DNA from: Chloroflexota bacterium
GTDB taxonomy: Bacteria; Chloroflexota; Anaerolineae; Anaerolineales; Anaerolineaceae
NCBI GenBank assembly: GCA_029265085.1
Contig: JAJUJY010000112.1
Location: forward strand, 1 to 14,786
Reading direction: 5' to 3'
DNA length: 14,786 bases
Under the pieces are notes generated by a model. It saw nothing but the letters and a program-made list of their open reading frames with translations, was not told the DNA's origin and made no database searches. This document shows positions 1,017-14,783 of the stretch, one piece after another. Every line of letters starts with the position of its first letter. Position 1 is the stretch's first letter. Position numbers and translations under genes: made by a program.

Positions 1017-2690
1017 ATGATTAACATTGAGGTGGGTTTCAATCATGGTTTCCAGCAATATGCTTTTTCCCCATCTGAAGAGAAATTAGAAATGACCCAA
1101 ACGCGAATTTTAGTTGTGGATGATGAGGTTGGAATCGCCCGTTTGTGCAAGCGATTGTTAGAGCAAGCGGGTTATGAAGTGATCATCAGTACGCATCCGT
1201 ATGAGGCAATCCGTTTGTTGTCAGAACAGCGATTTGATGTTTTGGTAACGGATGTGCGCATGCCGTTATTGGATGGTTTTGAGTTGGTAAACCGTGCCAG
1301 AATGCTGCAAAGTGATCTGGCTGTTTTGCTGATGACAGGGTTTGGTACGGTTGAGACGGCTATCCAGGCCTTGCATAGAGGAGTGGATGGGTTAATCCTT
1401 AAGCCTTTTGAATCGAGTGAAGATTTAGTTCGCAGTGTTGAACAGGTGTTGAGAGATTACCGCAGCCGCATTGACGCAAATCGATTGCATATTCTGAGAC
1501 CATTGTTTGAGATCAATGAAGAAATTTTTACTGAAGATGATCCGGCGGTACTTACTGCAGCGATTGAACAAGCGTTTATTGCTCAGTTTCAGACATATAG
1601 GGTGGAAATATTTACGAAGAATGAGCATGGATGGGAGTCCATCGCTGATCACACTGAAATTGATTTGAATTCAAAGCTTGTTATTGATATCGAATTGAAT
1701 AAGGCGTGTGAAACGAACACTGCCTATTTGGTCACTAGCGAAGAAAATGAAGAAGGGCTCTTTGCATCATGGCTTTTACTGCATGCTTATAAGGATGCAT
1801 TAATAGTTCCTGTAATGCACCGGGGAAGATGGCTGGTATATATCAGCTTAAGAAAAAATGAAGCTAGAGAAATTCGAGAACCGGACCTGGAATTTGCGAT
1901 GATCCTAGGAAGGCAATCTTCCATTGCACTTGAAAATATCTGGCTTGTTCATAATTTGAATGTGTCATTACGTCAATTGAGCGAATCCCAAAAGAAATTA
2001 ATCCTGGCTGAAAAAATGTCTGCTTTGGGCCGCTTGATGGCGAATGTAGCTCATGAGGTTAATAATCCCTTGCAAGCAGTTCAAAATTGTTTGCATTTGG
2101 CAATCCGAAATGATGTGTCTCATGAACAGAAAAATGAATATTTACTGATGGCGCGGGGTGAAATTGAGCGGCTTTCCGATTTTGTGCAAGGGGCGTTGGA
2201 ATTTTACCGGCCCAGCGGGGTTGAAAAGCAGATAATTTCGATGGGCGAAGTGATCCAAAAAACGCTCAATTTGATCCAAACCCAACTTAAACAAAAACAG
2301 ATTGAATGTCATATTTCGATCCAGGAAAATTTACCCAAAATCCTGGCGGTACGAGATCAATTACAACAGGTTTTTCTAAATTTATTTATCAATGCGATGG
2401 ATGCTGTCCAGGGTTGTCCAGATCCTAAACAAATTTGGATCGATGCTTGTGAGACGGATCAATTTTTGGAAATTACCATTGAAGATTCTGGTCCTGGTAT
2501 ACCCTATGATTTTGAAGGAAAAATCTTTGAGCCATTTGTCTCAACAAAATCAGGCGGAACCGGGTTGGGTTTATCGATTAGTTATGAAATCATTGTTGAT
2601 GTTCATCAAGGCCAGTTAGAAATCTGCCCACCCCGATATGGGCAAGGTGCCTGTTTTCGAATTCAGATTCCTAAGGGTAGTACACAATGA
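1017..2690 (+). CDS. Histidine kinase with N-terminal receiver domain (REC-GAF-HisKA-HATPase)
   Basis: A soluble 557-residue kinase. An N-terminal REC domain (about 29-148) has acidic D35/D36, phosphoacceptor D79 in TDVRMP, T107 and K129 in LKPF. A GAF-like region follows (about 165-310), then HisKA with H346 in AHEVNNPL, and HATPase with N-box N455/N459, DSGPGIP (490-496), FEPF (504-507) and GGTGLGLS (513-520). No membrane segment is seen. The HEVNNPL box and short catalytic domain resemble NtrB-type kinases. Its stop overlaps the next start (ATGA, 2687-2690), so translation is probably coupled and the following regulator is the likely partner; the N-terminal REC may receive signal from another kinase. 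The start is uncertain: 1017 has AAGG four bases ahead, but residues 1-25 match no domain, and Met26 (1092), four residues before the first REC strand, is an equally good candidate. Confidence 0.93.
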   Translation: MINIEVGFNHGFQQYAFSPSEEKLEMTQTRILVVDDEVGIARLCKRLLEQAGYEVIISTHPYEAIRLLSEQRFDVLVTDVRMPLLDGFELVNRARMLQSDLAVLLMTGFGTVETAIQALHRGVDGLILKPFESSEDLVRSVEQVLRDYRSRIDANRLHILRPLFEINEEIFTEDDPAVLTAAIEQAFIAQFQTYRVEIFTKNEHGWESIADHTEIDLNSKLVIDIELNKACETNTAYLVTSEENEEGLFASWLLLHAYKDALIVPVMHRGRWLVYISLRKNEAREIREPDLEFAMILGRQSSIALENIWLVHNLNVSLRQLSESQKKLILAEKMSALGRLMANVAHEVNNPLQAVQNCLHLAIRNDVSHEQKNEYLLMARGEIERLSDFVQGALEFYRPSGVEKQIISMGEVIQKTLNLIQTQLKQKQIECHISIQENLPKILAVRDQLQQVFLNLFINAMDAVQGCPDPKQIWIDACETDQFLEITIEDSGPGIPYDFEGKIFEPFVSTKSGGTGLGLSISYEIIVDVHQGQLEICPPRYGQGACFRIQIPKGSTQ

Positions 2691-3454
2691 ACCAATACAG
2701 AATTCTCGTTGTTGATGATGAAGATATTCCGCGCTTAACGCTTTTGCGGATTCTGCAATTGGAAGGTTTCCAGGTGACAGCCGTCGGGAGTGGTGAAATT
2801 GCACTGCTAGAGCTTGAAAAATCTCCTTTTGATGTGATGGTTCTGGATTTAAAAATGGGTGGGATGGGAGGGGTGGAAGTCCTGGAAAAGGTTGTCCCTG
2901 CTTATCCAAATCTGAAAATAATCATCTTAACCGCCTATGCTTCAGTAGAAACCGCGGTTCATGCGCTGCGTTATCGGGTAACAGATTATTTGCAAAAGCC
3001 ATTAGATCCGGAAATGATCTTGGTGAGCGTTCGGCGTGCTTTAGGTGAAGATTCATTGAAAGGGGTAGCTGAGCAAAAGACAGTCTATGACGCGCTGCCC
3101 AGCGATGCCAGCCAGAAATCAGTTTTTCATTTATCAAATGGAATTGTGATTGACTGTATGCGCAGATCGATTGCCACAGCCGAAGAAAAAATATTATTAA
3201 CACCAACCGAAGCAAAAGTATTGTGTATCTTATTGCTTAACCACACGCTTGTGATCTATCATGAAGATCTTGTCCAGCAAGTCTATGGATATCGTGTCAA
3301 TGCGGTGGAAGCTGCAAAAATTCTTCGCCCGCTAATGTCCCGCTTAAATAAAAAAATAATCAAAATACCCGGTGGAAAGGACTGGATCAAGAATATTCGA
3401 GGGTCCGGTTACTTATTGGAGATTATCGACACACGGATCGAAAGCAAATCCTAA
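2687..3454 (+). CDS. OmpR/PhoB-type response regulator
   Basis: A 255-residue DNA-binding regulator. The receiver domain (about 4-118) has D10/D11, phosphoacceptor D54 in VLDLKM, T82 in LTAYAS and K104 in QKPL. The C-terminal winged helix (about 148-246) shows LTPTEAKVL (171-179), the recognition-helix region around 206-224 and the wing signature IRGSGYLL (237-244). It should bind DNA and change transcription when phosphorylated by the kinase encoded directly upstream, with which it overlaps by four bases; AAGGG at 2673-2677 can serve as ribosome-binding site. Oddities: the usual proline and acidic residue after the phosphoacceptor (DxxMPxxDG) are glycines here (DLKMGGMGG, 54-62), and the recognition helix is less basic than usual. 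Targets are not evident. The gene ends 26 bases from the convergent transporter gene. Confidence 0.93.
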   Translation: MNQYRILVVDDEDIPRLTLLRILQLEGFQVTAVGSGEIALLELEKSPFDVMVLDLKMGGMGGVEVLEKVVPAYPNLKIIILTAYASVETAVHALRYRVTDYLQKPLDPEMILVSVRRALGEDSLKGVAEQKTVYDALPSDASQKSVFHLSNGIVIDCMRRSIATAEEKILLTPTEAKVLCILLLNHTLVIYHEDLVQQVYGYRVNAVEAAKILRPLMSRLNKKIIKIPGGKDWIKNIRGSGYLLEIIDTRIESKS

Positions 3455-3480: not shown

Positions 3481-4428
3481 TTATTTTTGCCAGGGTAATT
3501 GAGTAGTCGGTATCTTGGGTGGATTGAGCCACGCCAACCATCCGGTGGAATATCTCTTTTCTGGCGTATATTTATCAAAGCCGACCAACACTAAACTGGC
3601 CCCAATAACAGCTGCTCCAATCCACTGCAAGATTGACAAACTTTCGCCAAGCATAATATTTGCCAACACAACGGTAACTAGCAGTTCACTCAAACCTAAC
3701 AACGCAGTTTGTAGGCCGCCAAGTTGTTTTACCCCCATGAACAGTGTAATCCGAGACAGGAAAGTAATGATGCCCATGCCCAGAATGGGTAAGTAGTTGG
3801 TTTGTGCCAACGCGGGTAAGTGACGGTCAAATATAATAAATGCCAGAATGACAGTGCATGCCATGGATACCAGGGTGTAAAATGTGACTGTGGGCGGCGG
3901 GGCTTCATACAAAATACGTTGGTTAATGATCAGGTGTAGGGCATAAAAAATAGCAGACGCTAACATCATTCCTGCGCCAATCAGATCCACATGTTCTTTG
4001 CCTGTGCTTAACAATAATACGACCCCGGGAAGGGTGAGAATTAAGCGGAATAGTGTCAAACGGCTGATCGTATGCCGGTCTAATAACAGCCAAAATGCCA
4101 GGAATAGTGGATACAGGGAATAGAGTAAATGTCCGATACTGGCACTAATTCTGGTTAATGCAGTGTAATAAAAAATGGATCCAATCCCGTTGCAAAACCC
4201 TGCCAAAAAACTACCCATGAGACCAACCGGATATATATAAAAATACTGTCGTTTAAACAGCATCAGGATCAACAAAAGCAGAACTGCTATGCCGGTACGA
4301 AGAGCAACTACGGATAGCGGGGAAAATCCGGACAAAAGGGCTTGCTTGCCAAAAATCGGTATGATCCCTAGCAATAAGGCTGATGATAATGCAGCTGTGA
4401 TCCCTTGTGTCCGGATTTTTTGATTCAT
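3481..4428 (-). CDS. EamA/DMT-superfamily transporter
   Basis: A 315-residue, strongly hydrophobic inner-membrane protein with about ten membrane helices arranged as two EamA repeats (about 10-143 and 152-285). Characteristic stretches include PIFGKQAL (24-31), a repeat-1 helix ending LPGVVLLLSTG (133-143), and LGESLSILQWIGAAVIGA (260-277), the usual end-of-repeat-2 signature. A polar tail of about 30 residues (287-315) follows the last helix. The family includes exporters of amino acids and metabolites such as the threonine/homoserine exporter RhtA, but the substrate cannot be read from sequence. It starts 14 bases after the stop of the PLP enzyme-REC gene, with AGGA at 4437-4434 five bases before its ATG, so it is the last gene of the five-gene operon. 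Export or import of the neighbouring enzyme's product or substrate is a reasonable inference. Confidence 0.92.
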   Translation of the reverse strand: MNQKIRTQGITAALSSALLLGIIPIFGKQALLSGFSPLSVVALRTGIAVLLLLILMLFKRQYFYIYPVGLMGSFLAGFCNGIGSIFYYTALTRISASIGHLLYSLYPLFLAFWLLLDRHTISRLTLFRLILTLPGVVLLLSTGKEHVDLIGAGMMLASAIFYALHLIINQRILYEAPPPTVTFYTLVSMACTVILAFIIFDRHLPALAQTNYLPILGMGIITFLSRITLFMGVKQLGGLQTALLGLSELLVTVVLANIMLGESLSILQWIGAAVIGASLVLVGFDKYTPEKRYSTGWLAWLNPPKIPTTQLPWQK

Positions 4429-4442
4429 TGATTTCCTGGATC

Positions 4443-6131
4443 TTATTTCAACAAAGCGCGGACTTCATCTAATAATTCGTCCGACATAAAGTCACCTTTT
4501 TGCATCATGGTTTGGATATGTCCATTCAGCCGTTCTTTTTCTGCAGGGGTTAATTCTTTGGCTGTGACAATAATGACCGGGATGGAAGCTGTTTCCGGGT
4601 TGGCTTGCAATGCATCCATAACGGCAAACCCATCCATTTCGGGCATCATCAAATCGAGAATCACCAGGTTGGGAAGCTCTTTTTGAATTAGCTGAACCGC
4701 TTCTTTTCCATTGGTCGCTTCAAAAATGGCATAGTTGCCCTGTGCCTGGAGGATTCGGCGAACCAACCTGCGTACATCTGGGTTATCGTCCACAATTGCA
4801 ATGCATGGGAAGCGGTCTGTTGAGACTTTGCTCAAGGCTGCCAGGAGTCCTTCTTCCGGATTTTCCTCCATGGTTTGAGACGGCAAAATCACGTTTCTGG
4901 CCCATCCTTCGCCAAGGATGTTTCTTTCTATTGGCATGGTGTGGCCGGTAATATTCACTGCTACGGTTTCATGAGGTTGGATTTGCCCGGAACGGACGAG
5001 TTTAATCAAACCGGCAAATGACACCGCTGCAGCTGGTTCAACACTCAACCCTTCCATTTTTGCTAAGAAGTGCATCGACCGGAACGCTTCTTCGTCTGAA
5101 ACACTTTCAAAGATACCGCCTGATCCCTGGAGCATCTTTTGGCGCAGCAGTGTATACGTCCGGCCCGGATCGCCCGTAGCCAGGGTAGCAATTAATGTGT
5201 GGGGGGACTGAATTGGGATGGCAGTCTCACGGCCTTGTTTCCAGGCGTGTACCATGGGCGCACAGCCATCCACCTGAACGATGCCCATTTTCGGAATTTT
5301 GTCTATTAATCCCATCTGTTTTAATTCGGCAAATCCTTTGGCAACACCCAGCGGGCCCATCCCGCCGCTGACAGATTGGAAATACCAGTCTGGGGCTTTC
5401 CATATCGGCAGATGTCCATTTTCGTCGGGCTCTGTTGGGGTACCAATCTGTGCGGTTATTTGTTCGCAAATTTCAAAAGCCAGGGTTTTCATTGCTTCAA
5501 CGCAGGGAATACTGCGCGCACCAGTATCCAGGTAAAGCCCGCGTTGGCGGGCAAATTCTGCGGCTACCTGTTTGGCCTGATCGTATGAACCAGTAACTTT
5601 TATGACCTGTGTCCCATAAATCGCTACTTCTCGCATTTTGGCTGCGGGGACAAGACTGGTTAGAAAGGCATAGAGTTTAATTCCCGCCCGGGCGGCATAG
5701 GCAGAATAGGCAATTGCGACATTGCCAGTAGAAGCAACGACCATTTCGGTGATGCCAGCTTCTTTTAAGGCCGCAATGGTAATGGCTGCCTGCCGGTCTT
5801 TAAAAGAATGGGTTGGTCCCTGTCTTTCATCTTTTAAATAGATATTATTCCTTCCCAGGATCATCCCCAGGTTGAGCGCACGAATAAGCGGTGTTCCACC
5901 AGCTGCAAGGGTCAAATCAGGGTTAGGCCGTTGTACAGGCAGTAATTCGCGATACCGCCAGATATCAAAAGGACGATTTTTGATTAATTCGGGTAATGAG
6001 TTAGCGATTTCCTGATAATTGTAACGGGCTTCTCTCCAGGAACCACCACATTGTGGGCAAATACTGGCACCTGGGGTGTAAAGAGCGATATGTCCGCAGT
6101 CAAGGCATTCAACGTTAAAGTGGGTTGTCAT
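4443..6131 (-). CDS. Threonine-synthase-like PLP enzyme fused to C-terminal receiver (REC) domain
   Basis: A 562-residue fusion. The N-terminus has a zinc-ribbon-like pair, CLDCGH (9-14) and CPQCGG (25-30), as in many archaeal-type threonine synthases. The fold-type II PLP domain (about 75-412) has GPTHSFKDRQA with probable Schiff-base K111, the phosphate/substrate loop STGN (134-137), GSYDQA (181-186), SVSGGMGPLG (253-262), SVEPAAAVS (363-371) and TGHTMP (395-400). Threonine synthase converts O-phosphohomoserine to threonine, but two motifs differ: the usual GNxGN loop is SGGMGP, and the usual TGHGLK is TGHTMP, so the substrate is unproven. After a linker of about 30 residues a full receiver domain follows (443-562): D448/D449, phosphoacceptor D493 in LDLMMPEMDG, T523 and K545, the last followed by Gly instead of Pro. 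The gene sits 26 bases after the giant kinase gene, with AAAGG at 6147-6143. One uninterrupted frame makes a sequencing artefact unlikely. Confidence 0.92.
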   Translation of the reverse strand: MTTHFNVECLDCGHIALYTPGASICPQCGGSWREARYNYQEIANSLPELIKNRPFDIWRYRELLPVQRPNPDLTLAAGGTPLIRALNLGMILGRNNIYLKDERQGPTHSFKDRQAAITIAALKEAGITEMVVASTGNVAIAYSAYAARAGIKLYAFLTSLVPAAKMREVAIYGTQVIKVTGSYDQAKQVAAEFARQRGLYLDTGARSIPCVEAMKTLAFEICEQITAQIGTPTEPDENGHLPIWKAPDWYFQSVSGGMGPLGVAKGFAELKQMGLIDKIPKMGIVQVDGCAPMVHAWKQGRETAIPIQSPHTLIATLATGDPGRTYTLLRQKMLQGSGGIFESVSDEEAFRSMHFLAKMEGLSVEPAAAVSFAGLIKLVRSGQIQPHETVAVNITGHTMPIERNILGEGWARNVILPSQTMEENPEEGLLAALSKVSTDRFPCIAIVDDNPDVRRLVRRILQAQGNYAIFEATNGKEAVQLIQKELPNLVILDLMMPEMDGFAVMDALQANPETASIPVIIVTAKELTPAEKERLNGHIQTMMQKGDFMSDELLDEVRALLK

Positions 6132-6157: not shown

Positions 6158-9100
6158 TTAAGCTCGCCAGCGTTTTAATGCGTCTTCCAGTGTATTCAAT
6201 AAATCGCGTTCACGCAGCAAGCTCTTATTCAGCATCTGTTGACCAAATTCCGCCAGCAGTTGGTGCTGCTCCGGGGTTAAGTCTGCGCCAGTGACAATAA
6301 TGACCGGGGTCTTTCGCATGTCCGGGTCGGAGCGGAATTTTTCCAGCAAGTCGAATCCGTTCATATCTGGCATAAACAGATCCAGTAAGATTGCATCCGG
6401 GCGGGCTGTTTGTAATATTTCGATGGCAGCTTTGCCGCCTTGGGCGGTGATTACTTTAAATTTACTGTTTTCCTGGATTGATTTTTCGATTAAGCGCAAA
6501 TCATCAGCCGAATCATCGATGACAAGGATTTGATTGATTTTTCCATCTCTATTCAGGCGATTAAGCGCATTAATTAAATCTTCCTGCAGGAATGGTTTAA
6601 CAAGGTAATCGGATGCCCCGATACTGAATCCTTTTTCTTCATCTTCCATGATGCTGCAAACGATGATGGGAATATCGCGGGTGGCCGGATCATTTTTTAG
6701 CTCGTGCAGAACTTGCCATCCGTCTTTCTCGGGCATCATGATATCCAGGGTAATTGCAAAAGGCTTAATCTCTTTGGCCTTCTCCACGGCTTTCTTGGGA
6801 TCGGTTAAAGAAACAATCCGGTAACCGCTCGGTTGTAAGAATCGCTCATATAAATTGATCACTTGTTGGTCATCATCAATCGAAAGGATTGTGTTGATTT
6901 GATAAGGAAGTGTAGAAGTATCGGCGATTGTTTCTTCTTCTTTTACCTGAATGGGTAATGTGAAGAAGAATGTGCTCCCTTTTCCGACTTCACTTTCAAG
7001 TAATCCAATCCGGCCTTTGTGCAATTCAATAAATGAACGGCAAATGGAAAGACCCAAACCGGTGCCGCCTGTCTTGCGGGTGGGGGAATCGTCAACCTGA
7101 GAGAAGGGTTGGAACAATTTATCACGGTCAGCTTCGGCAATGCCATCCCCGGTGTCGGATACCATGATCATAACTTCGGGTTTTCCATCAGGGCTGGTGA
7201 CCGTCTTGGCATCAATTGATATCAAGCCCTCTTCCGTAAATTTGGCCGCATTTGATACAAAGTTTAGCAATACCTGCCGGACACGGGTGGCATCCGCAAC
7301 AACGATTGGTAAGTTCGGTTCAATTTTCTGTTCTAGTCGAATGGATTTATCTTTGACCAACCCAATGGCAGTGGACATCACTGTATTAATAATGTCCGGA
7401 ATACTGACATCAGAGAATTGCAATTCCATTTTACCGGCTTCGACTTTGGATAAGTCCAACACATTATTAATCAAACCGAGTAAATGTTGCCCGGAATTGT
7501 ATATCGAAGTCAAATCTTGCTGTTGTACTTCGTTGATGGGACCGTCGATACCTTTTAGAATGACTCGTGAAAAGCCGATGATTGAGTTTAATGGGGTACG
7601 CAGCTCATGGCTCATATTGGCCAGGAACTGACTCTTTAACCGGTCCACTTCGCGAATTTCCTGGTAAGCTTTTTGCGCCAATTCGTATGAACGGGCGTTC
7701 TCAATCGCAACGGCAATCTGATCAGCAAGAATCAGCAGCACGCTGACATCTGCCTGACTGAATGCATTCAGGTGTCTGGATTGAATATCCAGTGCGCCGA
7801 TAATACGATTACCAATTTTTAATGGGATACCCATTTCAGACTGAGTCTCAGGCAGTTCGGGATGGGCAAGCTGCAGATTGTTGTTGGAAACATCATTGAC
7901 GACGACCGGTTCACCTGTAGCTGTCGTACGGCCAATGACAGAGCGCGACCCGACCAATATTTTTTGCCCTTTGGCGAGAATTTTTTCTGCGGCTTGACCG
8001 CTGGCTTCTTGAATATGGGCAACTGTGCCTTCGGGATTAAGCAGGAACAAGGCTGTGTGATAGAAATCAAAACGCTCGACCATCAAGTTTACAATGCGTT
8101 TTAAGAGAGCGTCTTGAGCCAGGGTGCTGTTGGTGTCTCGCGCAATTTCAGCAGCTGTTTCAAGCTCAAGCGCGCGGCGCTGTGCTTCACGCAGTAACCG
8201 CTGTCTTTCAATCGCGACTGAGATACCATTACCTACTGTTTGGAAGAGCCGAATGGTATCTTGATCATATGTAAGCTTTTTCTTTGCAGAAATGGTCATC
8301 AGACCAACCAGCCGTCCCGCGCTGAGCAGCGGAACGATACATCCTGATTGAATTTTGTTTCTCAACAAAGTTTCTTTGGAAATTGCATCAATTTCGGATA
8401 ATCTGACATCATTAAATACCAGAACGTCTTGGTTAACCTTCTTGACCAAGGGGAAATCGGCAACCGGAATGTGCAAACCTAAGGGAATGTGCTCATTCTT
8501 GCGATCAAAGTCCCCGACAATTTCCAGATCGATAATTGCACCGTCAGGGGTTTGATTGACCAAAATAATGGAAACGTGGTCTGCATCTGCCGGTAGTACT
8601 TTTTGAGCAATTAATTCAGACAAGTCTTGAGCACCGCGTGCCTGCGAAATTCCGGAACTGAGGTTGTATAACAATTCGGTTTCAGAAAGAGCCTGTTGGG
8701 TTTGTTCGAATAAACGCAGGTTTTCAACACCGGTAGCCATCTGGTCAACCAATGGGGGATAGGTGCGAATTTCACGTCCGCTGAAGTAATGGCGGTCTTC
8801 TGTCAGCAAAACAAGAGCACCCAGTTGGCTTTTCCCAGCCCATAAAGGTAAAACAGCCAAAGAACGAACTGCCTGATTGATTAATTCGTCTTGAATATCC
8901 CGATCAAGTTTTGCTTCCAGGATGTCATCAATAAACAACGGCGATTCTGTGGTAATTAACCGGCTTAATACTGAATTGGATAACTCTGTACCAACCGGCA
9001 GCGGGGGAGTACCTCGTCCGCTGTACCAATTTGCGCGCACGGAATGCGAAATGATTTTTCCAGAAGGATCTTTTTCAGTCAGAATTAACAGACCGCGATT

Positions 9101-11086
9101 AAGTGCATGGACTCGCATGCCTGTGGCAATTGAAGCGACCATTTCCTGGAAGTCGTTGGCTAAAGCAAGGCGGTGGCTGATTTTATACAAGTTTTCGGAT
9201 TCATCCAGCGATGCTTGTAACTGTTCCAGCAGGTCCTGCCGGACAAAAGTGTTTGCCAGGGCGTCAGCAGCCACACGTAAAACACTAATTTCGTCGTTCT
9301 GCCAGGTATGCCCGGTTTCCATTTGCTCAAAGGCAATGAATCCAGGGGTTGAGTTCTTTCCCGGAACGGCCAACAGTAGAATGGATTGGATCCCCTGGTT
9401 GGCGAGAAAATCATGTTCCAATCCTTCCAGTTGATCTACTTTTGCAACAAACCAGCCATTCTCACGGAGTGCACGCCCCCAGGTGGGGAATAGGGCAACC
9501 GGCATGTGTAAAATTTTGGTGCGTTCAATCGGATGAGCAATATCCGGCTTTGTCCATACATTTTGAGCCGTCCAATACAAGCCCTGCTCATCTTCCTTAA
9601 CTTGAGAGAAATAAACCCGATCAGCCTGGGAAGCTTGTCCAAGATGCTGCAAGACTTCGGGCAGCCCTTTGATACCGAATTCGGAGAGTGTGGCAACAGC
9701 CTGCGCAATACTCGCCTGATAGCGTTCGCGGTTTTCGATTGCGGTCAGGGCGGAGGTAATTTCTTTAAACAGGTTTGCGTTTTCCAGTGCAACGGTTACC
9801 TGAGAGGCAATTGTCGATAACAATTCGATTTGCACATCGTTATATGCATTTTCCGTGGTGTAGTCTTGAAGGACAATGGCCCCCAGAACTTTATCGCTGG
9901 TAATCAGAGGCACAGCCAGGATAGAGCCAGGGATTTTTTCCGGAATGGGAATGCCCCGTTGAGAAAGCTCATCTCGAACATGGTTTGGAACAATCATCGG
10001 AACCTGGTTCAGAATTACATAATCCGCGATGCCGTTTCCAATTTTCCGATTGGGCAGGTCAATCTTTTGTCCTTCTTGCAGCACGATGGGAAAGCTGAGG
10101 GTGTCTTTTTCAAAGACTGTTAATAGAAAATTCGGACTGTTTAAAACCTGGCTAACGGTTTGGAAGAGTAATTCGTAAATTTCTTCCGGAGAAGTTAACC
10201 GAGCCAGCTCCTGCCCAATCCGGTTTAAAGTAGCCAGGTCCTGGTTACGCCGTGTAATTTCTTGTTCTGCGCGGACTCTTTCCGAGAGCTCCTGTTGAAC
10301 CGTTGCGTATAGTTGTGCATTTTCAATAGCTAACGAAAGTTGAGCGACAACTTCTTGAACCAACTGCCGTTCATCATCACTCCAGACTCGCTGCTTTTCT
10401 TCGTCTAGGATTTCAACAATGCCAAGTCCCTGTGCCTTTAAGTCAACGGGTAATGCCAACACGGCTGGGGCAGTCGATTGGGCATTTTGGGTAATTAATT
10501 TCTTCTGTGCAGCGCTTAATTTTCCCGCTGTTGACCAATAGTTCTGTGCGGGGAGTAATGAATCGCCCTCTATAGCAACACCGGTAACTTTTTCATTTGT
10601 TGCACGATGTTCTGCCAGCGGATGAATGGGTACCGCCTTGGCGGATTCTACCGGTCTGGCAGGTTGGGAGGTTGTTTCAATTTCTCCGGAAAGAATTTGA
10701 ACGTATCCGTGATAGTTATTGCCTTCACCATTTACAGCAGGGCGAAAGAAAATGGTCAACCGGGATGGAACGAATGCTCCCTCTCTGGTTAAAAAGTGGA
10801 TATCCACTTCAGCAGGAAAGACTTCGCCTTGCAGTGCATTTTTTATGGTTGACCGGGATGCTGCCGCTACAGCCACATCCTTGATGGATTGACCTATGAA
10901 ATGGGTTGGTTGAAAACCCAGGCAGTCCGTTACGTCTGACGAGATTGTCCGATAGATCCCATCGGCAGAACATTCCCATGACCACCCTGAAGCAGCGCGA
11001 TTTTCCTCAGGGTGGATTGGCGCAACGGCATCTTCAAAATTGGCAAAGAGATTCTCAAGCCGGCTGTGCAACTTTTTCTTCGACAT
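6158..11086 (-). CDS. Giant soluble hybrid histidine kinase (PAS, multi-GAF, HisKA, HATPase, REC-REC)
   Basis: A 1642-residue cytoplasmic kinase with no membrane segment. Domains in order: PAS-like (about 31-135); a short, degenerate GAF (about 170-260); GAFs at about 287-440, 455-620, 635-795, 805-965 and 975-1135, joined by helical linkers each beginning after a motif like ALENA or AIENA; HisKA with H1160 in MSHELRTPLN; HATPase with N-box N1275/N1279, DTGDGIA (1311-1317), FQPF (1325-1328) and GGTGLGLS (1340-1347). Two receivers close the protein: REC1 with D1404/D1405, D1448, S1478 and K1497 (VKPF), and REC2 with D1524/D1525, D1569, T1599 and K1621 (NKS, no proline). GAFs may bind small ligands or mediate dimer signalling; no ligand can be named. 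No HPt or DNA-binding domain is present. Its ATG lies inside parA (32-base overlap) and the PLP enzyme-REC follows 26 bases later, making that receiver a likely phosphorylation target (inference). Confidence 0.95.
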   Translation of the reverse strand: MSKKKLHSRLENLFANFEDAVAPIHPEENRAASGWSWECSADGIYRTISSDVTDCLGFQPTHFIGQSIKDVAVAAASRSTIKNALQGEVFPAEVDIHFLTREGAFVPSRLTIFFRPAVNGEGNNYHGYVQILSGEIETTSQPARPVESAKAVPIHPLAEHRATNEKVTGVAIEGDSLLPAQNYWSTAGKLSAAQKKLITQNAQSTAPAVLALPVDLKAQGLGIVEILDEEKQRVWSDDERQLVQEVVAQLSLAIENAQLYATVQQELSERVRAEQEITRRNQDLATLNRIGQELARLTSPEEIYELLFQTVSQVLNSPNFLLTVFEKDTLSFPIVLQEGQKIDLPNRKIGNGIADYVILNQVPMIVPNHVRDELSQRGIPIPEKIPGSILAVPLITSDKVLGAIVLQDYTTENAYNDVQIELLSTIASQVTVALENANLFKEITSALTAIENRERYQASIAQAVATLSEFGIKGLPEVLQHLGQASQADRVYFSQVKEDEQGLYWTAQNVWTKPDIAHPIERTKILHMPVALFPTWGRALRENGWFVAKVDQLEGLEHDFLANQGIQSILLLAVPGKNSTPGFIAFEQMETGHTWQNDEISVLRVAADALANTFVRQDLLEQLQASLDESENLYKISHRLALANDFQEMVASIATGMRVHALNRGLLILTEKDPSGKIISHSVRANWYSGRGTPPLPVGTELSNSVLSRLITTESPLFIDDILEAKLDRDIQDELINQAVRSLAVLPLWAGKSQLGALVLLTEDRHYFSGREIRTYPPLVDQMATGVENLRLFEQTQQALSETELLYNLSSGISQARGAQDLSELIAQKVLPADADHVSIILVNQTPDGAIIDLEIVGDFDRKNEHIPLGLHIPVADFPLVKKVNQDVLVFNDVRLSEIDAISKETLLRNKIQSGCIVPLLSAGRLVGLMTISAKKKLTYDQDTIRLFQTVGNGISVAIERQRLLREAQRRALELETAAEIARDTNSTLAQDALLKRIVNLMVERFDFYHTALFLLNPEGTVAHIQEASGQAAEKILAKGQKILVGSRSVIGRTTATGEPVVVNDVSNNNLQLAHPELPETQSEMGIPLKIGNRIIGALDIQSRHLNAFSQADVSVLLILADQIAVAIENARSYELAQKAYQEIREVDRLKSQFLANMSHELRTPLNSIIGFSRVILKGIDGPINEVQQQDLTSIYNSGQHLLGLINNVLDLSKVEAGKMELQFSDVSIPDIINTVMSTAIGLVKDKSIRLEQKIEPNLPIVVADATRVRQVLLNFVSNAAKFTEEGLISIDAKTVTSPDGKPEVMIMVSDTGDGIAEADRDKLFQPFSQVDDSPTRKTGGTGLGLSICRSFIELHKGRIGLLESEVGKGSTFFFTLPIQVKEEETIADTSTLPYQINTILSIDDDQQVINLYERFLQPSGYRIVSLTDPKKAVEKAKEIKPFAITLDIMMPEKDGWQVLHELKNDPATRDIPIIVCSIMEDEEKGFSIGASDYLVKPFLQEDLINALNRLNRDGKINQILVIDDSADDLRLIEKSIQENSKFKVITAQGGKAAIEILQTARPDAILLDLFMPDMNGFDLLEKFRSDPDMRKTPVIIVTGADLTPEQHQLLAEFGQQMLNKSLLRERDLLNTLEDALKRWRA

Positions 11087-11837
11087 ATTTCATGATCTCC
11101 TGGGCTAATTGGCGGTATTGCATGGCAGACCGACTTTTGGGAGAATGGTAAATAATCGGTAATCCGGCAACCGGTGATTCGCGTAATTTTGTATCAATCA
11201 TGATGACCGAATCCAAAACACCGTTGGTAAAACTGGAGCGGAGTTGTTCGCTCATCGTGCGGTGGATGCGGTTGCGGCGGTCAAACATGGTTAACAACAG
11301 CCGGTAGGTGAGGTTTGGGTTGGTTTGGGTGCGAACCCGCCGGATCAGGCTCATCATATTCTTTAATGCATAAATGGAAAAATATTCCGGTTGTGTAGGG
11401 ATAATTAACAAATTCGAGGCGGTTAGCGCGTTTAAGACGATTGCACCTAAAAAGGGAGGGCAGTCCATCAGCACATAATCAAAGTCATTTTTGTCGGTCA
11501 ATAAATTCTTTTTAATGGTTGATTCATAGCCGGGGCGGGTTGGCAAAATGCGCTCTACAAATCCCATTTCATTATTTGCCGGAATGACGAACAAGCCTGG
11601 GATGCCTGTTTCCATCCAAAGGGCTTCCCCTTTAATGCCCTCTAATAGCATCGAGACAATTGTTTTGGGTGATTTGGTTGGATCTAATCCCAAGGCAAGG
11701 GTCAAGTTGGCTTGAGAATCCAGATCGATTAATAATACTTTCTTGCCGGATTCAACCAGGGCTGCGCCTAAAGATAAGGTTGTGGTTGTTTTGGCAACCC
11801 CACCTTTTTCATTGGTTACAGAAATTACATAAGCCAT
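11055..11837 (-). CDS. ParA/Soj-family ATPase (orphan, no ParB nearby)
   Basis: A 260-residue ParA/MinD-superfamily ATPase. The deviant Walker A is EKGGVAKTTTT (10-20) with signature K11 and P-loop K16; the usual second-position glycine (KGGVGKT) is alanine. Walker A' is LLIDLDSQAN (35-44, D38/D40) and the later motif VLMDCPP (122-128) carries D125. Length is typical for chromosomal-type ParA without an N-terminal DNA-binding domain. Such proteins dimerise on ATP, bind nucleoid or membrane surfaces and position DNA or protein cargo. No parB or parS-like site is visible; instead the gene is sandwiched between a membrane sensor and a giant kinase. That suggests a role in placing a signalling complex, as known for ParA relatives that position chemoreceptor arrays, but here this is inference. 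GAGG (11847-11844) is a good ribosome-binding site six bases before ATG. Its last 32 bases overlap the kinase gene. Confidence 0.93.
   Translation of the reverse strand: MAYVISVTNEKGGVAKTTTTLSLGAALVESGKKVLLIDLDSQANLTLALGLDPTKSPKTIVSMLLEGIKGEALWMETGIPGLFVIPANNEMGFVERILPTRPGYESTIKKNLLTDKNDFDYVLMDCPPFLGAIVLNALTASNLLIIPTQPEYFSIYALKNMMSLIRRVRTQTNPNLTYRLLLTMFDRRNRIHRTMSEQLRSSFTNGVLDSVIMIDTKLRESPVAGLPIIYHSPKSRSAMQYRQLAQEIMKYVEEKVAQPA
11097..11101 (-). promoter_or_regulatory. Ribosome-binding site inside parA for the giant kinase
   Basis: Minus-strand AGGAG at 11101-11097 lies within the last codons of parA, ten bases before the ATG at 11086. A nearer ATG (11093-11091) is in the parA frame, not the kinase frame. 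The site supports 11086 as the kinase start and implies that the two genes are translationally linked. Confidence 0.6.
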
Positions 11838-11864: not shown

Positions 11865-14783
11865 TTACTGCTGCGTGAAAGAATGCCCATGATTACCATG
11901 ATTGCCGTTTGAATTTTCATCATCGTCAGATAATGACTTCTTGAGCAATATTTGGACTCTAGTTGCTGATAAAGCACGCTGTAATTCAGCTACGGCAATT
12001 TCAATCATGGATTGCGGATCATTGGTAGCACGAATCTTGCCAGTTATGTCAAGCACTTTCCGTTCACGTTCTGCGCGGCGGATGGTGTTATCTAACAGGC
12101 GCGCATTTTCAAGGGCTAATCCAACCTGGTCAGAAACCGCCCGAATTGCATTCACTTCATCATTTGTCCATAAACGGTCAGCCAAAGTCGCATCTTGTAG
12201 ATGGATTACGCCAATTGTCTCACCTCGTAGCATGATCGGTACGGCAAGGATGGCAGGATTATCGTTCGCTGCTGCACTGGCAATCACCTGGCCTGTATCA
12301 AAGACTGTTGCCAGGATTGGGTTAATGCTGTCATCTGTTTCTACAATTCCGCGGGGTGTGTAAACAAATCCTTTGAATGGTTTTTCTTTGGTAGTAGTTG
12401 CCCATTCTTGCCGTAAATATTGCCTGTGTACACGCTGCGCCTCTTCCAACGCGGCCATTGTATTTGTCAACAATTGGTTATTTAAAATCGCAATCGCAAT
12501 CTGGTCAGCCAGGGTTGAGAATAACTCGATATCTTCTTGCGTAAACACGTTAGATACGGTTGACTGTACGTCCAAAGCGCCAATGACCTGATTGTTGGCT
12601 TTTAATGGTAAAGCCATTTCAGACCGGGTTAAAGGCAGATCAGGATTGTTAAAGTACACTGCGTCTTGACCTACATCCGTGGCAATACGAGCCTCTCCTC
12701 GACCTGTTGCATAACCTACGATACCTACCTGGCCTACTTTTAACTTGTGCTGCCGGGCTAACATTCGCTGTCCGCCCTCGCTATTTGCTGCACGAAGAAC
12801 CGCAAATTCACCTTTGGAGTCGAGCAAGAAAATACCTACATGATAGAAACCAAACCGTTCCGAAATCATGCTGGTAACCTGGGTCAGTAAGGCTTCAAGA
12901 CCCTGAGTTGATACGATACTACGGGCTACATCGGATACTGTTTGCAGCTGGCGAGAGCGGTACACCAGTGCATCGTTTTGTGCAGCCAGTTCTTTTGTGC
13001 GCTCTCGCACGCGGTCTTCCAATTCATTAATAAAATTCCGCAGCTGGCCGGTCATCGAGTTGAAGGCGTTGGCTAATTTTCCAATCTCATCATTGGATTC
13101 TACCTGCGCCTGCGCTTGAATATCCCCTGAGGAGATTTTCTCTGCGGTTCGTTGTAAGCGGACAATGGGGGTGCTGAAAAATCGTGCTGCGATGGTCGCG
13201 ATAACACCAATTACTGCCGCGAACAGGGTCGCAATCAGGGTGGAAAGACGGTATTGGTCTTGTAATAAGGCCAATAATGCGGTTTGTTCCTGGACGAACA
13301 GGATAAACCAGGATTTCGATTTCAGGGAGGTGATAGCCCCGTTTTCTAACAAATTATTGGTGTTTGGATTAACGTCCGTAGTGAAATACGGTGTCACCAA
13401 ATAATTTTCCAGACTTTTGGATATCTTGGGTAAGTTTGTGGAAATTTGAAAAGAGGAATAATCGGGCAGGCGATTAACCCGTTTAAGAGATTCAAACTCA
13501 TTGGAGGTTAATGGCACCAGGAATGAAAAAATTCGATTCGGAGTTAATGTGTCTGCAACACGCATGTCATTTTCATCAACTAAAATTGGGTGCGAACGCA
13601 AGCCAACTAAATTATTGTATTTTGACAAGATGTTTTGAAAAATTAATGCATCATACTTCATTCGGATCACGCCAATGATTTGTTGGCGCTGACTGCGGAT
13701 TGGGCTGGCGAAATAGACATAAGCGTTACCATTCTCTGGGGAAAACAGAATGGGTGACACATATGTCTGGCCAGTTTGGACGGTTTGGATGAAATAGTCG
13801 GTTAAACCTTCATTTTTGCCAATATCTACAGGATTTGTGTCGTAGATATTGTTTCCTTTTAAATTGAGGATTGCATAAGATCGCAGGTAAGCCTGTTCTT
13901 TGGTTTGCAATGATCCCAAGACAACTTGTAAATCGCGTTCTTGTTGGCTATCTGGGCGAGAGTCGGGAGCCATTTCCAAATAATTAATAAATACTGGTAG
14001 TTTGGCTTCTTTTTCAATTGCATCTCGGTTGGATTCAATAAAGTTGTCAATTTGGGTTGCCACCTGTTCGGCTGCTAACATCAAGGATTGGTTTTTCTGG
14101 TTTTGCAGCGCAGTAATAATAAAACGAGTTTCAATGATCGATAAGAAAATCAGTGGAATGATTGCAATAGCCAATGAACCTGTGACCAATTTGATCCGCA
14201 GATTGTTGACCACGTATTCCATCGAGAGCAGCACGAGATATAAAATGACCAGTAAACCCAGGATTGCAGGAGCGTAAATCTCAATGATGGGAAGAGAAAT
14301 TTGTTGAAATGGGGAGAAAGAACCGATAAAGGCGGCTAAAATGGAGAATGCGTAGCTGAGAGAAACACTCAAATCCAATTTTTGGTCAGCTAAAGTGCCG
14401 GTGGCGATAATGATCCCAAAAATAAAACAAATGGCCGCAATCATTAAGGAAACATTGGAAAACACCATTGCAAAAATCACCAATAAAGACTGCACGACAA
14501 TTCCCAACATCATCGATTGCAATGAATAATCGGAAGATAATTGGTTGGTCAGAACGAACAAACTGACCAGATAGGCGGCAGCGCAACTTGCAGCAATCAC
14601 AATCAATTGCCAGCTGGGTTGGGAAAATACTGTAAAAGTGAAGATCAGGGTGGCAATTCCCAAAATCGTTGAGGTAAATGCCGCAATTCGGCTGGCCAAT
14701 CTCTTCCGTTGTTGATCCATTGGATTTGGCAGCGGGGGTGATTGTGGGTTTAAGATGGATTCAATGTCTGGAGAAGCGTTCAT
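11865..14783 (-). CDS. Membrane sensor: multi-TM, Cache-like domain, HAMP, GAF-GAF, no output domain
   Basis: A 972-residue membrane sensor. About seven hydrophobic helices (roughly 32-217) come first, then an extracytoplasmic region (about 220-510) with a double-Cache-like pattern, for example YVYFASPIRS (355-364) and IIGVIRMKYD (369-378). A further membrane helix (513-533) leads into HAMP (about 534-590) with a coiled-coil exit (ELEDRVRERTKELAAQN, 587-603). Two GAFs follow (about 612-770 and 790-895), then a partial GAF-like start (about 909-948) and a His/Asn/Gly-rich tail (NGNHGNHGHS, 959-968). There is no HisKA, HATPase, cyclase, methyl-accepting or REC domain, so it must signal through a partner. 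It is 27 bases upstream of parA and two genes upstream of the giant kinase, whose GAF at 975-1135 closely resembles its first GAF. The start is provisional: only three bases precede the ATG, so an upstream extension cannot be excluded. Confidence 0.88.
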   Translation of the reverse strand: MNASPDIESILNPQSPPLPNPMDQQRKRLASRIAAFTSTILGIATLIFTFTVFSQPSWQLIVIAASCAAAYLVSLFVLTNQLSSDYSLQSMMLGIVVQSLLVIFAMVFSNVSLMIAAICFIFGIIIATGTLADQKLDLSVSLSYAFSILAAFIGSFSPFQQISLPIIEIYAPAILGLLVILYLVLLSMEYVVNNLRIKLVTGSLAIAIIPLIFLSIIETRFIITALQNQKNQSLMLAAEQVATQIDNFIESNRDAIEKEAKLPVFINYLEMAPDSRPDSQQERDLQVVLGSLQTKEQAYLRSYAILNLKGNNIYDTNPVDIGKNEGLTDYFIQTVQTGQTYVSPILFSPENGNAYVYFASPIRSQRQQIIGVIRMKYDALIFQNILSKYNNLVGLRSHPILVDENDMRVADTLTPNRIFSFLVPLTSNEFESLKRVNRLPDYSSFQISTNLPKISKSLENYLVTPYFTTDVNPNTNNLLENGAITSLKSKSWFILFVQEQTALLALLQDQYRLSTLIATLFAAVIGVIATIAARFFSTPIVRLQRTAEKISSGDIQAQAQVESNDEIGKLANAFNSMTGQLRNFINELEDRVRERTKELAAQNDALVYRSRQLQTVSDVARSIVSTQGLEALLTQVTSMISERFGFYHVGIFLLDSKGEFAVLRAANSEGGQRMLARQHKLKVGQVGIVGYATGRGEARIATDVGQDAVYFNNPDLPLTRSEMALPLKANNQVIGALDVQSTVSNVFTQEDIELFSTLADQIAIAILNNQLLTNTMAALEEAQRVHRQYLRQEWATTTKEKPFKGFVYTPRGIVETDDSINPILATVFDTGQVIASAAANDNPAILAVPIMLRGETIGVIHLQDATLADRLWTNDEVNAIRAVSDQVGLALENARLLDNTIRRAERERKVLDITGKIRATNDPQSMIEIAVAELQRALSATRVQILLKKSLSDDDENSNGNHGNHGHSFTQQ

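Follow-up and report, generated by a model that had tools for sequence, protein, structure and literature searches.

Can a histidine kinase act directly on a pyridoxal phosphate (PLP)-dependent enzyme? This question is raised by a gene at positions 4443..6131 of a 14,786-bp stretch of contig JAJUJY010000112.1 from a member of the Anaerolineaceae (Chloroflexota); the whole stretch is referred to below as the window. The gene encodes a PLP-dependent, threonine-synthase-like enzyme (PALP domain) that continues into a response-regulator receiver (REC). The fusion and its parts are the following:

4443..6131, minus strand: PALP-REC fusion gene, 562 amino acids (open reading frame analysis, Pfam, homologues and alignment)
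6048..6107, minus strand: zinc-ribbon-like CxxC...CxxC, residues 9-28 (cysteine conservation in the alignment)
4944..5912, minus strand: PALP (PF00291, fold-type II PLP enzyme), residues 74-396 (Pfam, E value 2.1e-62)
5799-5801, minus strand: Schiff-base Lys111, in SFKDR (sequence and alignment)
4806..4895, minus strand: linker, residues 413-442 (alignment; low predicted local distance difference test scores at 401-404 and 406-430)
4464..4802, minus strand: receiver (Response_reg, PF00072), residues 444-556 (Pfam, E value 2.6e-22)
4653-4655, minus strand: phospho-acceptor Asp493 (sequence and alignment)

The frame starts with ATG and has no internal stop, and the plus strand across the interval contains many stops. 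A preliminary description of this DNA had reported an uninterrupted PALP and REC frame without stating the strand; this is correct for a single 562-residue frame with both Pfam domains on the minus strand, and its residue numbers (Lys111, the STGN loop at 134-137, Asp448/Asp449, Asp493, Thr523 and Lys545) are all right as well. The two domains occur together in all 119 matches listed besides the window protein (70-76% identity) and, in a second search with a Herpetosiphon-type query, in all 120 matches listed. A sequencing artefact or frame error was therefore rejected, as the fusion recurs with both domains in many homologues and genomes, and a chance adjacency of two genes was rejected on the same evidence. 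Homologues thus share the fusion, and the linker, where the preliminary description had allowed for a frame break, is unbroken in the window and measures 24-47 residues across 130 alignment rows. The interval is confirmed as a genuine, conserved fusion of a PLP enzyme and a receiver.

For the analysis of conservation, the window and 132 further loci were aligned (133 rows; the over-long L105 frame was left out, and L075-L077 had been dropped from the set, being the same genes as L004, L003 and L007). The enzyme halves share at least 45% pairwise identity, with a median of 55% (130 rows). Lys111 and Asp449 are present in 133/133 rows, Asp493 in 132 (one gap) and Lys545 in 130 (3 gaps); position 523 is Thr in 95 rows and Ser in 37 (one gap), and position 448 is divided between Asp (67) and Glu (66). 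The residue following Lys545 is Gly in 126 of the 133 rows. Furthermore, each of the zinc-ribbon cysteines 9, 12, 25 and 28 is found in 132/133 rows, and a Ser/Thr-Gly-His motif (395-397) belongs to the conserved set of the fusion enzymes. The fusion therefore has the acidic pair, the phospho-acceptor Asp, the Thr/Ser and the Lys of a response regulator, and both halves retain the catalytic and phosphotransfer residues proposed from the single sequence. As Asp449 is invariant and Asp493 and Lys545 nearly so, the capacity of the receiver to be phosphorylated is kept about as strictly as the PLP lysine.

The fusion is widespread in Anaerolineae, the class of Longilinea arvoryzae: a search with the full-length protein gave a strong match (E value 8.7e-81 or better) in 100 of 298 genomes sampled from it (counted by hand), three of which (G062, G117 and G145) have partial or broken copies. 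Leaving aside a broken copy in G273, the next matches listed are unfused PALP proteins with 35-40% identity and E values of at least 2.7e-70. A search with the enzyme half in 400 Chloroflexota genomes revealed 56 places in 42 genomes (hand counts as well) at 1.4e-123 or better, followed by a clear gap to the next match at 4.1e-66. At all 56 places of this subfamily the receiver is fused (44 and 12 places in two separate checks). In both genome searches up to four candidates were scored per genome, so that a poorly ranked unfused member could escape. Among the short matches retrieved from the Anaerolineae search there was no clean unfused subfamily gene, as these lie at contig edges (L234, L235, L238, L239, L240) or have broken frames (L236, L237); this check left out G211:C329 and G271:C268, the latter with one stop. 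Every complete subfamily member examined is a REC fusion.

A contig scan with exact peptides of the window protein gave 13 fusion loci, all from Anaerolineae, and one relative in an Asgard archaeon (33%) matching the enzyme part only. Herpetosiphon giganteus (class Chloroflexia) carries the fusion protein too, which extends the spread to two classes of one phylum, Chloroflexota. Some genomes (e.g., G161, G177, G282, G289) possess two diverged copies, often each beside other signalling genes. Frames of 1784 (G109) and 1157 (G050) residues suggested fusion to larger partners, an idea that was not adopted; the ~1000 additional N-terminal residues of the G109 frame (L105) have no Pfam match and were therefore taken as open frame preceding the real start codon.

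In the window, the fusion is the fourth of five consecutive minus-strand genes (dCache-HAMP-GAF-GAF protein, ParA-like ATPase, hybrid kinase, fusion, EamA transporter):

11865..14783, minus strand: dCache-HAMP-GAF-GAF protein (Pfam; kept in near relatives)
11055..11837, minus strand: ParA/MinD-like ATPase whose end overlaps the start of the kinase gene (Pfam)
6158..11086, minus strand: hybrid histidine kinase, 1642 amino acids, with GAF repeats, HisKA, HATPase_c, REC and REC (Pfam)
6167..6538, minus strand: terminal receiver of this kinase, about residues 1517-1640 (REC tree)
3481..4428, minus strand: EamA/DMT-family transporter, 14 bp downstream of the fusion (Pfam)

The kinase frame ends 26 bp upstream of the fusion gene, in agreement with the operon-like position directly after a giant hybrid kinase noted in the preliminary description, and a kinase is found nearby at most other loci as well. 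Judged by this arrangement, the hybrid kinase is the probable phosphodonor of the fusion receiver. The dCache-HAMP-GAF-GAF protein is the probable membrane sensor of the operon; Pfam found no kinase or methyl-accepting domain in it, so it would need a partner to act. The order of dCache protein, ParA/MinD-like ATPase and kinase is kept in near relatives. The operon includes the ATPase in 11 of 13 near relatives, the stretches of the remaining two being cut off at contig edges, and EamA directly follows the fusion in the window and 12 of the 13 (the thirteenth ends at a contig edge). From the opposite strand, another kinase gene and the gene of an OmpR-type regulator (1017-3454) converge on the operon.

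The association with kinases was followed across the 128 of 133 loci that had at least 900 bp of upstream sequence (five with too little flank were excluded). Of these, 94 have a kinase catalytic domain encoded on the same strand no more than 400 bp upstream, with a median gap of 17.5 bp. As controls we used 37 loci of unfused PALP genes, drawn from 13 near-relative genomes only; a kinase lies upstream in 0/37 of them, and in 2/37 one of the neighbours, on whichever side, encodes a REC or kinase. The upstream kinase possesses RECs of its own in 63 of the 94 loci and has none in 31. A tandem-receiver variant of the enzyme (frames of ~700 amino acids, e.g., L107, L109, L117, L118) occurs at 23 of the 133 loci. 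None of the 63 REC-bearing kinases is paired with such a two-REC enzyme, and 15 of the 31 REC-less kinases are; these 15 are all the tandem variants that have a kinase directly upstream, and in 14 of them a single-domain receiver comes next. In total, a single-domain receiver is next after 23 of the 31 loci with a REC-less kinase. The receivers are shared out between kinase and enzyme; as the loci are related, a Fisher test of this pattern does not give a fair probability.

The relationship of the receivers themselves points in the same direction. In a tree of 112 RECs, the fusion RECs, the second RECs of the tandem variant and the terminal RECs of the upstream kinases group in a single clade (51 rows, 100/98) that excludes CheY-like RECs, RECs of the REC-kinase type and internal kinase RECs. 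Within this sample, a Lys-Pro pair near the REC end is found in 14/16 internal kinase RECs and 18/18 CheY-like RECs, and in 0/29 fusion RECs and 0/16 terminal kinase RECs. The simplest reading is that the receiver of the enzyme was derived from, or is shared with, a hybrid kinase.

We consider it probable that the protein is a response regulator with an active threonine-synthase-like PLP enzyme as its output, which is phosphorylated by the adjacent kinase and controlled in this way in its activity or assembly. On this reading the domain order is reversed, with the output enzyme first and the receiver last. Sensor modules encoded in the operon (GAF and dCache) would inform the adjacent histidine kinase, which would phosphorylate Asp493 by direct phosphotransfer, and the phosphorylated receiver may then alter how active the PLP domain is or how it assembles, in either direction. 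The enzyme presumably acts on an amino acid, by beta- or gamma-replacement or by elimination; O-phosphohomoserine is probably not its substrate, and the product may be exported by EamA of the operon.

Several observations weigh against this reading. There is no kinase in the retrieved stretch for 22 of the 133 loci (several of these stretches end at contig edges), and some kinase-less copies lie beside unrelated housekeeping genes (MtnA, PNPase, RNase Y, Na/H exchanger). The loci are related by descent, so that their counts are not independent. No result indicates a contact between receiver and enzyme, and the linker is poorly predicted in the structure model. Finally, of the 84 loci with enough sequence, only 30 have EamA encoded downstream at a distance of up to 2.9 kb, which makes export a lineage-level guess. 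We also considered deducing a pathway from the neighbours of the kinase-less copies (MtnA, ribonucleotide reductase, PNPase, RNase Y, isocitrate/isopropylmalate dehydrogenase family); these are too mixed, and no pathway is named. The ribonucleotide reductase gene near one such copy (L124:1833-6284, plus strand) contains an intein and LAGLIDADG domains.

What kind of enzyme is the output domain? Threonine synthase (ThrC; TIGR00260; structures 2zsj, 1v7c and 2c2b) resembles the fusion in its fold, the PLP lysine in SFKDR, the STGN loop and a terminal Ser/Thr-Gly-His, at ~30% identity to the bacterial structures; thus the fusion has the PLP lysine and the fold of a ThrC. However, the ThrC proteins examined have no REC, and their GNAGN loop is replaced by SGGxGP in the fusions. 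Among the NCBIfam models, the window protein scores highest with NF006050 (244.2 bits, under the cut-off of 303). These PRK08197-type proteins share with the fusion a zinc-ribbon start, a Gly-rich PLP-phosphate loop and a GCAP motif, but they keep an EPYR arginine, are unfused and form a separate clade. Cysteate synthase (TIGR03844; CapA2, 9k3c) lacks a REC, and the window protein scores 118.8 bits against its cut-off of 324.9. At four loci (L114, L184, L192, L195), the fusion gene is closely followed by that of an unfused PRK08197-type paralogue, with a REC gene in between at three of the four, which hints at a two-enzyme module.

If the fusion were a true second ThrC under kinase control, the kinase would directly adjust threonine synthesis. 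Apart from the fold, this possibility has in its favour that source databases name many homologues 'threonine synthase', and that the cut-off of the generic thrC model TIGR00260 is passed by 11 fusion copies (168-189 versus 167.1 bits), which come from 10 genomes in a further set of 20; moreover, no ThrC above 179.5 bits was found in G161 and none above 173.6 bits in G013. Nevertheless, the window protein reaches only 161.4 bits with this model and falls short of each of the NCBIfam threonine-synthase cut-offs shown, the fusions in a first set of 13 genomes are likewise all under the TIGR00260 cut-off, and a separate, better-scoring ThrC is present in 31 of the 33 genomes of relatives (13 and 20). 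In a tree, the fusions form a clade separate from ThrC on a long stem. The arginine of the NSxNPxR motif (Arg160 of the Thermus enzyme), which has a role in phosphate binding, is present in 5/5 ThrC alignments from the PDB and in 8/8 ThrC from the genomes of relatives, whereas this column is occupied in 131 of the 133 fusion rows by Ala, Gly, Ser, Cys, Thr or Val (the six commonest residues). The loop holding this arginine in ThrC is not devoid of positive charge in the fusions, with Arg or Lys at position 206 in 123/133 rows and an often basic position 211 (92/133 rows), which again speaks for a ThrC; these residues could take the place of the ThrC arginine, the one at position 206 as a partner for an acidic substrate group. 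On balance we regard a second ThrC as unlikely. The enzyme most likely represents, as judged from its sequence relationships, a distinct threonine-synthase-like subfamily, and the gating of primary (threonine) metabolism suggested in the preliminary description is not supported, considering score, clade, missing arginine and separate ThrC together.

It is also conceivable, with slightly lower probability still, that the PLP domain is an amino acid sensor rather than an enzyme, its ligand state tuning the receiver as a drain or store of phosphoryl groups. There is a parallel in MocR-type transcription factors, which employ an aminotransferase fold, and the C-terminal REC of the fusion, placed as in hybrid kinases and in one clade with their terminal RECs, would fit such a role, as would the RECs already present on the kinase in 63 of 94 loci. 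Conservation of the catalytic Lys, the Ser/Thr-Gly-His motif and the zinc ribbon argues for an enzyme, as a pure sensor should be freer to drift, but this is a weak argument because a PLP-binding sensor would retain the Lys too. Recruitment of the enzyme by its receiver to a complex of kinase and ParA, with control of location or oligomeric state at an unchanged catalytic rate, would account for the ParA-like ATPase in the operon of the window and of most near relatives and for the poorly ordered linker. As ParA is found in only one of 20 more distant stretches (L120) and the phosphotransfer residues are conserved all the same, we consider recruitment improbable. A response regulator with an enzymatic output thus remains our preferred reading. 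A further proposal is more speculative and less likely than not: the fusion may stand for a new class of two-component output, a PLP enzyme subfamily that exists only with a receiver attached and that makes, on command of a multi-GAF/dCache kinase, a small molecule derived from an amino acid (perhaps a signal or osmolyte that is exported). Phosphorylation would then set the metabolite output directly, without transcription.

Most two-component systems characterised so far control transcription, second messengers or motility. LqsA/CqsA signal synthases are PLP enzymes encoded together with a kinase circuit, but they have another PLP fold and are not known to carry a receiver on the enzyme. Receivers were stated in the preliminary description to sit usually on DNA-binding, cyclic-nucleotide or kinase modules. 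This needs qualifying, as enzyme-attached receivers have been reported as a class: according to section 14 of PMC5847659, which cites Galperin 2006 and 2010, receivers are found on standard metabolic enzymes in multiple bacterial cases. The KaiC-REC and BcsA-like-REC proteins treated there resemble the fusion in being enzyme-attached and lineage-restricted; however, they are archaeal and involve other enzymes, whereas the fusion contains a PLP enzyme, occurs widely within a single bacterial phylum and in most cases has a kinase beside it. No PALP-REC protein was found in the literature searched, and Galperin 2006 or 2010 may contain an earlier mention. PALP-REC is apparently an undescribed example among enzyme-attached receivers.

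Database entries call the homologues 'threonine synthase' or 'pyridoxal-phosphate dependent enzyme', and a caution for pathway reconstruction follows: PALP-REC genes should not count as ThrC. The enzyme with its receiver and the probable kinase are encoded together, and several named hosts are in culture (Anaerolinea, Bellilinea, Longilinea, Ornatilinea, Herpetosiphon); direct switching of a PLP enzyme by a kinase is therefore testable with one purified pair. A large family in Chloroflexota resembles an enzyme under direct aspartyl-phosphate control and, if this is true, an outside signal may set enzyme activity directly in these bacteria.
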